From contig NZ_JAMQOP010000001.1 of the NCBI RefSeq assembly GCF_031624495.1, positions 868,001 through 932,000 on the forward strand: a DNA stretch of 64,000 nt. The letters run 5' to 3'. Below the pieces are notes generated by a model. That model saw only the letters and a program-made list of their open reading frames with translations, did no database searches and had not been told where the DNA came from. Below, piece after piece: positions 8,313 through 9,197 of this stretch. How positions within the stretch are numbered: the stretch's first letter is position 1; each line of letters begins with the position of its first letter. Source of the stretch: Halogeometricum sp. S1BR25-6 (lineage in GTDB: Archaea; Halobacteriota; Halobacteria; Halobacteriales; Haloferacaceae). The translations under genes were made by a program, and so were the position numbers.

Positions 8313-8555
8313 TCAGTCCAGTAGCGCGAGGACGACGAGTCCGAGACACAGCGCTCCCACCGAGAACACCGCAGTTAAGAGCGCTCCGGGGGGGTCGTAT
8401 CCGCGGTGGACGAGACTGGTGGTGAGCAGGATACCCCCGACTCCGCCGAGGAGCGTGAAGACGGGGACCAGAAGCGTCGCTCTCGACGGATGGTTCCACT
8501 CCTCCCAGTTCCACGCCAACAGACGGGAGCGGAGTTTCTGGAGGCGGTCGGTCAC
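8313..8555 (-). CDS. small two-helix membrane protein, unknown function
   Basis: An 80-residue protein, starting VTDRLQKLRSRLLAWNWEEW, with two hydrophobic segments (about 32-52 and 62-79). The frame is open up to an ATG at 8630, but that ATG falls inside a degenerate tRNA-derived repeat. I prefer the GTG at 8555, which lies about 27 nt below a minus-strand TATA-like GTTATTA at 8579-8585, the leaderless pattern. No family is recognised. The W-rich amphipathic stretch before the first helix may lie on the membrane surface. Confidence 0.55.
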   Translation of the reverse strand: MTDRLQKLRSRLLAWNWEEWNHPSRATLLVPVFTLLGGVGGILLTTSLVHRGYDPPGALLTAVFSVGALCLGLVVLALLD

Positions 8556-8641
8556 GGTACCGCGATATGCGGACGACGTAATAACTGTTAGTTCAATCCT
8601 CTCGCTCGGACGTGCGAGTTCGGGAGGCATCGCGGGAGGTA

Positions 8642-8689
8642 GGTTTGAACGACGGGAACCTCGCTATCGCTCGGTTCTCTCGTTCAAAC
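8642..8689. repeat. inverted repeat in satellite unit 3
   Basis: Arms at 8642-8660 (GGTTTGAACGACGGGAACC) and 8673-8689 (GGTTCTCTCGTTCAAAC) can pair around a short loop. The outer arm is the tRNA T-arm sequence. Confidence 0.7.
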
Positions 8690-8777
8690 TCCCTGTACTC
8701 CCTCCGAAAACACGTGGTCACGGTGCGATAAAACGCATCGCTTGGGAGTGTGAAGTTCAGGAGAATAGCGGGAGGTA

Positions 8778-8834
8778 GATTTGAACCACGGTCGCTCCGT
8801 TCGCCGACGCTCACGTCGCTCCTCGGTTCAAATC
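8778..8834. repeat. inverted repeat in satellite unit 2
   Basis: Arms GATTTGAACCACGG (8778-8791) and CCTCGGTTCAAATC (8821-8834) pair with two mismatches. The bases between them are unrelated to the other units, so the arms were kept while the loop diverged. Confidence 0.65.
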
Positions 8835-8925
8835 TCCTCGGAGCTATGGTGCCGAACTCGGCCGTCGCTCGGCGATGAAACGCCTCGCTTGGGAACTGAG
8901 TCCGGCAAAACCATAGCGGGAGGTA

Positions 8926-8974
8926 GATTTGAACGACGAGAATCTCGCTGATGCTCGATTCTCTCGTTCAAATC
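8926..8974. repeat. inverted repeat in satellite unit 1
   Basis: Arms 8926-8944 and 8957-8974 (GATTTGAACGACGAGAATC and GATTCTCTCGTTCAAATC) pair almost fully around a 12-nt loop. This is the best-preserved hairpin of the array. Confidence 0.75.
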
Positions 8975-9052
8975 ACCCCTGCACTCTTCGCACAGAAATA
9001 CGTCGTCGCGCCGAGACAAGACTCGGCGCTCGGGAGTGTGAGTTCAGGAGAA

Positions 9053-9127
9053 TAGCGGGAGGTAGATTTGAACTACCGATCTCCGGGTTATGAGCCCGGC
9101 GGAATCTCCTGGCTATCCCATCCCGCT
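9053..9127 (-). tRNA. initiator tRNA-Met (CAU)
   Basis: Reading the minus strand gives a 75-nt cloverleaf without an encoded CCA. The acceptor stem is AGCGGGA paired with TCCCGCT, the anticodon arm is CCGGG-CTCATAA-CCCGG with anticodon CAT, and the T-arm is GGTAG-TTCAAAT-CTACC. The A1-U72 end pair and the three consecutive G-C pairs at the base of the anticodon arm are hallmarks of archaeal/eukaryal initiator tRNA. An AT-rich CCTTAACC at about 9150-9160 is a plausible promoter. Its 3' half is repeated three times downstream. Confidence 0.97.
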
Positions 9128-9197
9128 ACATCAACCAAACCGCGGGTTACGGTTAAGGATTGTGATTCGACCGCCGTATGTCAATTTCCACCGGTGC

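Follow-up and report, generated by a model that had tools for sequence, protein, structure and literature searches.

The RtT repeats of Escherichia coli, known from the older literature, are the closest known case of the arrangement described here and were tested as such. In E. coli K-12 the RtT repeats (RF00391, rttR, tpr) are found at tyrT/tyrV, 175-178 bp apart. They stand in tandem directly behind tRNA-Tyr, each terminates in the last 19 nt of this tRNA, and an inverted copy of the T-stem/acceptor segment, GCGGGGAAGGAT, is placed inside the unit. The E. coli strain SK1144 has no annotated RtT array at the tyrT/tyrV locus. Other systems are comparable in part of their properties. In integron attC sites and in the attP of the CTX phage, a folded single strand recreates the double-stranded core, and both serve here as functional analogies only. 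The REP/REPIN sequences, with RAYT, are doublets of imperfect palindromes of about 100 bp and have the character of DNA hairpins. Haloarchaeal integrative elements, among them those with SNJ2-type integrases and the pleolipovirus proviruses, target the 3' ends of tRNA genes and leave direct repeats (PMC8371274, PMC7911831).

The locus under study lies in a window of 64 kb, the whole stretch of DNA analysed, from Halogeometricum sp. S1BR25-6 (the source genome). It consists of an initiator tRNA-Met gene (tRNA-iMet) and an array placed on the 3' side of the tRNA, with the following features in window coordinates.

9053..9127, minus strand: initiator tRNA-Met(CAT) (Rfam RF00005, 60.5 bits; ARAGORN 9052-9128; anticodon stem GGG..CCC, as in initiators)
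9053-9073, minus strand: template block, the last 21 nt of tRNA-iMet (G53 to N73)
8914..9052, minus strand: unit 1, type b, 139 nt, with hairpin 1, inverted T-loop arm, apex and exact tRNA-end copy
8914..8934, minus strand: copy 1 of the 21-nt tRNA-iMet 3' end, exact
8766..8913, minus strand: unit 2, type a, 148 nt, with hairpin 1, inverted T-loop arm (8826-8837), apex and exact copy
8766..8786, minus strand: copy 2 of the 21-nt tRNA-iMet 3' end, exact
8630..8765, minus strand: unit 3, type b, 136 nt, more degenerate, with hairpin 1, inverted T-loop arm (8682-8693), apex and copy
8630..8650, minus strand: copy 3 of the 21-nt tRNA-iMet 3' end, two mismatches

The tRNA-iMet 3' terminus, in plus-strand reading TAGCGGGAGGTAGATTTGAAC, begins at 9053. 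The original prediction placed repeats of this 21-nt end at 8914 and 8766 (exact) and at 8630 (two mismatches), with spacings of 139, 148 and 136 bp, and these values were all recovered. When searched with up to three mismatches, the 19-mer of the tRNA-iMet end occurs only at these four sites in the whole 4.5-Mb genome and its reversed control pattern gives zero matches, which excludes chance. A flank common to the units, GGGAGTGTGAGTTCAGGAGAA, had also been proposed; it is present in units 1 and 3, and unit 2 lacks it and has a different body. The array is thus not one unit tripled, as its order is b, a, b, with two sequence types under one common architecture. Type b (unit 1) is also found in Haloferax, and type a (unit 2) in Haloferax and in other Halogeometricum. 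The order tRNA-iMet, array and Rieske-like gene is conserved in several relatives, so the locus itself looks stable. A minus-strand frame of 105 aa (window 8313-8630) starts within the last tRNA-end copy.

Read in the direction of the tRNA, the units follow a common plan. Hairpin 1 starts from the tRNA end and is followed by hairpin 2, which is composed of an inverted T-loop/T-stem arm, an apex and the copy of the tRNA end. In unit 1 the stem of hairpin 1 is formed by GCGCCGAG/CTCGGCGC at 9008-9029 and the inverted T-loop arm occupies 8966-8977. In unit 2 hairpin 1 starts at the GCTA of the tRNA end (GCTATGG..GCCGGACTC / GAGTTCGGC..CCATAGC). The same plan was measured over 72 units; units of this class contain no genes and are about 85-180 bp long. 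The copied block corresponds exactly to G53-N73: the match is 0.88-1.00 over the 21 positions and then falls to 0.64, 0.49 and 0.29. In all isotypes the block has a sharp start at the T-loop and runs to the discriminator base. The inverted arm, of about 11 nt, comprises the T-loop and the greater part of the T-stem. With no more than one mismatch in nine positions it was detected in 49 of the 72 units, against 2 of 72 with shuffled queries. It fits the T-stem of its own tRNA better than those of other tRNAs (3.2 vs 2.3 of 5, p<0.001); in tRNA-Gly(ccc), for example, the T-loop is TTCAATT and the arm AATTGAA. The apex measures 22-57 nt in nearly all units.

The association with tRNA genes extends over the source genome and beyond it. 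In the flanks of all 46 tRNA genes of the source genome, copies of the gene's own 3' end lie downstream of 16 tRNA genes, on the same strand; upstream copies occur at two, both adjoining duplicated neighbouring tRNA genes, and cross-pairings with the ends of other tRNAs match in 18 of 2070 cases. With full tRNA copies excluded, units follow 14 of the 46 tRNA genes in the source genome, 22 of 51 in Haloferax massiliensis and 15 of 63 in Haloarcula argentinensis. Among sampled tRNA genes, units follow 5 of 12 in Hgm. limi and 11 of 30 in Hfx. prahovense. At three loci of the drafts of Haloferax gibbonsii and prahovense, unit counts are inflated by short false repeats, in which a single N is followed by a duplicated stretch of tRNA. 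These false repeats resemble the 90-bp assembly artefacts already reported (PMC7911831). A null with permuted ends gives 0.2-1.4 tRNA genes across the five genomes, with 0.4 expected for the source genome. The hosts span 14 amino-acid types and the median spacing, which is the unit length, is 121 nt. Tandem copies of the tRNA-iMet end were found in 27 of the 57 haloarchaeal genomes with a match, in 10 families, and exact pairs 128-158 nt apart at 38 haloarchaeal loci; among the copies in 60 genomes no gene-bearing tRNA-iMet cassette was found. In three non-haloarchaeal genomes of the phylum, used as control, a single tRNA of 25 scored, and this one proved to be a plain tandem duplication with a larger part of the tRNA in it.

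Further observations concern the tRNA genes of these genomes. The elongator tRNA-Met of Hgm. limi is followed by three units. In Haloarcula argentinensis (C27:216765-223762) a dozen or more extra tRNA genes are arranged in tandem over 7 kb, as in tRNA-rich viruses and plasmids. Duplicated neighbouring tRNA genes (Val, Phe, Asp) are present in Haloferax massiliensis (C6:102875-103069, C2:1622138-1625566, C2:1747547-1747721), and the Phe genes of this species have related downstream units, which indicates that units are also duplicated along with their tRNA gene.

The use of the initiator tRNA as host had been considered special, and this view is not maintained, given that many isotypes serve as hosts and the units are tRNA-wide. 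Nor is the supposition of a single initiator tRNA general, as Haloferax prahovense has two tRNA-Met loci with the same 3' end. On the other hand, the link to tRNA genes itself stands. The outcome that would have contradicted it, a dispersed family unrelated to tRNA genes, was absent: the four best other genome matches of the array adjoin other tRNA genes and the 19-mer is confined to four sites, so that a dispersed repeat or REP family was rejected. The units share with REP/REPIN the palindrome doublets of about 100 bp and the DNA-hairpin character, but differ in containing a tRNA end and in having their best other matches beside tRNA genes instead of dispersed. A relation to the palindromes that are ubiquitous in haloarchaea was likewise rejected, as the 64-kb window contains neither GAGCGNAGCGAG nor GCGANCGNAGNGAGC.

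The comparison with RtT is closer. The haloarchaeal units likewise stand in tandem directly behind the tRNA, end in a copy of its terminus and carry the inverted arm inside. The apex motif GAGCGNNAGCGAG (GAGCGCCAGCGAG, GAGCGTCAGCGAG in RtT) is the same in both, and the apex has the form GAGCG-loop-AGCGAG in haloarchaea as in RtT. RtT differs in being present at one tRNA locus, against a quarter or more of all tRNA genes in haloarchaea, in its longer unit, and in its annotation as a small RNA with the overlapping tpr ORF. No match to RF00391 above the gathering threshold was obtained in haloarchaeal arrays from three sources, whereas the E. coli repeats score 133-138 bits; the haloarchaeal arrays are consequently not members of RF00391 as defined.

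The array at tRNA-iMet is best regarded as one case of gene-less, tRNA-anchored palindromic units distributed across the haloarchaea, which would serve as minimal cassettes, swapped at the 3' end of the tRNA by an enzyme that we infer; the probability of this reading is about 0.5. In its favour are the occurrence of units at many tRNA genes, each with the end of its own tRNA, the sharp edge of the copied block and the inverted arm. The differences by entire units between sister species, the related bodies on different tRNAs and the DNA-type fold, all given below, support it as well. A tyrosine recombinase or a similar strand-exchange enzyme most likely would act at the edge of the T-loop. The folded single strand, made up of inverted arm, apex and tRNA end, would recreate a double-stranded core, as in attC and in the attP of the CTX phage. 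A recombinase working on a folded strand is favoured because hairpin 2 rebuilds the core duplex, the copied block begins at the T-loop and each unit ends in the sequence of its host tRNA. The 21-nt direct repeats would in turn allow copies to be lost and the array to be reshuffled by recombination between them, and losses by this route are very likely under any mechanism. Neither an enzyme tied to the units, in the window or at units elsewhere in the genomes examined, nor an excised circle or a fresh (de novo) insertion, among the genomes compared, was found, and for this reason the movement of cassettes and the reading as a whole are set at about even odds.

The resemblance to integrons extends to several points. 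In both systems there is a fixed anchor, each unit closes with an imperfect palindrome, the last arm of which carries the anchor core again, the 5' boundary is G|TT, and the action may take place on folded single strands. In the haloarchaeal units the terminal hairpin repeats the anchor core GTTCRANTC, as an attC-like hairpin does. Unlike integron cassettes, the units carry no genes, have no adjacent integrase and use this tRNA-specific core instead of GTTRRRY. A wider proposal, which is tentative and rather improbable as a whole, would place the haloarchaeal units and the E. coli RtT repeats in one class of cassettes, tiny palindromes that would pass from one tRNA gene to another and restore the 21-nt end of every new host by recombination of a folded single strand.

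Among the alternatives, the one that survives best, though it is considered unlikely, takes the units as RNA devices. In this explanation the hairpins in a read-through transcript would be terminators, processing signals (for tRNase Z, an acceptor/T-arm minihelix) or precursors of small RNAs; such a role was reportedly proposed before for the E. coli RtT repeats, and the annotation of E. coli K-12 lists RttR as a small RNA. The strict position of the units 3' of tRNA genes and on the same strand agrees with it. Hairpins are also frequent directly 3' of tRNAs that have no units (22.8% with z<-2 vs 6.5% at +600). Compensatory changes in the stems between genera, with the pairing kept through two-sided changes in 6 of 29 pairs, are those that a functional RNA would show. 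The type of mismatch tells against it. With a scoring that gives no preference to wobble pairs, and with the units being mutually related and not independent samples, G.T and A.C mismatches stand at 104:80 in the unit stems and at 86:10 in the acceptor and T stems of tRNAs from the same genomes. Selection for RNA pairing should give a tRNA-like bias, and its absence argues against a selected RNA and for an element of DNA. The A.G:C.T mismatches, at 169:45 in the unit stems, show that the two strands are not equivalent, with a bias in the tRNA-sense strand. Most apex loops are triloops of the form C-GNA-G (62) or tetraloops of the form C-GNNA-G (at least 15, among those listed); the tetraloops are not of the GNRA type, since their third base is a pyrimidine in 15 of the 15 listed. 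On G-C stems, loops of the GNA and GNNA kinds give DNA mini-hairpins of extraordinary stability (PMC4686876). Above threshold, the only Rfam matches in the arrays are tRNA, and a role in RNA leaves the precise 21-nt copy of the tRNA end without a reason. Together, the statistics on mismatches and loops speak for a fold that is maintained in the DNA, the tRNA-sense strand being favoured.

A second and still less probable alternative is the tandem duplication and deletion of a host-derived 3' flank, through slippage or unequal crossing-over, while gene conversion would maintain the identity of the tRNA-end copies. Types a and b at tRNA-iMet are common to Haloferax and Halogeometricum in different orders, and a/b/a and b/a/b arrays can come from unequal exchange. 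Repeat-mediated deletions, partial tRNA duplications included, have been described in Haloquadratum (PMC3119063). The number of copies does vary, as had been suggested for checking: at Ser(tga), Val(cac) and Thr(ggt) the difference between Hfx. prahovense and Hfx. massiliensis amounts to exact whole units. At Ser(tga) an extra 143-nt unit lies between the tRNA and a common 148-nt unit (124 of 128 positions identical); only one of the two Haloferax species has a 122-nt unit at Val(cac); a 97-nt unit at Thr(ggt) is likewise limited to one species, and the flanks align from the first base (170/200). Each single case of presence or absence could reflect a deletion across direct repeats. At Ser(tga) the extra unit and the resident one are largely unrelated and have only short patches in common, a relation that tandem duplication does not explain. 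Neighbouring units are often unrelated, yet kin occur on different tRNAs: near-identical stretches of 33-47 nt link units of Leu and Val (38/38 identical), Ala and Arg, Ala and Thr, and Gly and Ser, and 461 of 2596 unit pairs exceed the null maximum for shared bodies. The bodies recur on different tRNAs, while each unit ends in the sequence of its own host. In the Ala(cgc) unit of the source genome, the arm GCGGAGATTTGA is fully complementary to the Arg(gcg) end as far as its CCG and the terminal copy belongs to tRNA-Ala; it looks like a body from one tRNA joined to the end of another, as one example and not a statistic. Tandem duplication also leaves the inverted arm and the sharp T-loop boundary unexplained, and it probably accounts for part of the change in copy number.

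The original prediction pointed to repeated integration and loss of elements as a source of such ladders, with a duplication process tied to the tRNA as an alternative. In its ordinary form the first reading means a ladder of att-site scars, left in the tRNA by pleolipovirus-like proviruses or plasmids. Haloarchaeal elements do target tRNA 3' ends (PMC8371274, PMC7911831), proviruses are present at such tRNAs in the same genomes, and the block from the T-loop to the end is what a crossover in the T-loop would displace. The part of the claim that sets a process at the tRNA end is borne out by this sharp block, present in all isotypes, and by the copy number, which changes from species to species in exact units; the ladder in its usual form is not. 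Six integrated elements were recognised from integrases near tRNAs, with a second tRNA-end copy, full or partial, 1.5-14 kb downstream, and their ends have neither hairpin 1 nor the inverted arm. In two of these places, the Haloarcula Thr(ggt) element and the Thr(cgt) element of the source genome, typical units lie beyond the far copy. The Thr(cgt) element (within C1:1093000-1110000) measures 10.9 kb; a frame of 370 aa close to its far end encodes a tyrosine integrase, and a typical unit of 100-150 nt follows just past its far copy. Since the element ends lack the plan and units lie beyond the elements, the units do not represent ordinary provirus scars. Most simply, they would have preceded the elements, which entered between tRNA and units. 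Both kinds of sequence stand at tRNA 3' ends with direct repeats, but the elements comprise kilobases and an integrase, whereas the typical units, at 83-180 bp, are too short for an integrase gene. No PF00589 match occurs within the window coordinates of the source genome, no integrase gene was found in the window next to the anchor tRNA or between the repeats, and the array and its surroundings are free of integrase remnants. The narrow range of unit length and the conserved, covarying fold across genera also stand against scars. The reading as scars of ordinary proviruses is largely refuted and is given little probability.

Elsewhere in the source genome (C1:627389-638000) the elongator tRNA-Met is closely followed, on its downstream side, by two strong tyrosine integrases (627894 and 637324), and no second end copy of this tRNA was found within 20 kb. 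A haloviral origin through the tRNA-iMet core was tried and rejected: the exact 19-mer is present in only two IMG/VR records, which have their own tRNA-Met genes. No haloarchaeal virus is among the best BLAST matches of phage records, and the best plasmid matches are haloarchaeal plasmids with tRNA-Met-like DNA. Copying from the mature tRNA by reverse transcription is ruled out, as no CCA follows the copies. That the units are DNA structures selected by the host, as supercoil-absorbing cruciforms or bound palindromes behind strongly transcribed tRNA genes, is also improbable: the DNA-type loops, the near-equal wobble classes and the conservation between genera are in its favour, but many tRNA genes have no units, sister species differ freely and the exact tRNA-end copy is left unexplained.

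No account of the haloarchaeal units was found in a literature search that included two Haloferax genome papers and covered mainly papers outside the subscription journals, and the units are apparently an undescribed, widespread repeat system. This haloarchaeal class is far wider than the single known RtT locus, and in several haloarchaeal genomes a quarter to nearly half of the tRNA genes carry units. Provirus finders that rely on repeated tRNA ends will misread these units as integration scars. The isolated RtT repeats of E. coli would gain a class that crosses domains, with the exact 21-nt tRNA-end copy, the inverted T-loop arm and hairpin loops of DNA type. The exact unit differences between sister species of Haloferax, a tractable archaeon in the laboratory, make the process accessible to experiment.
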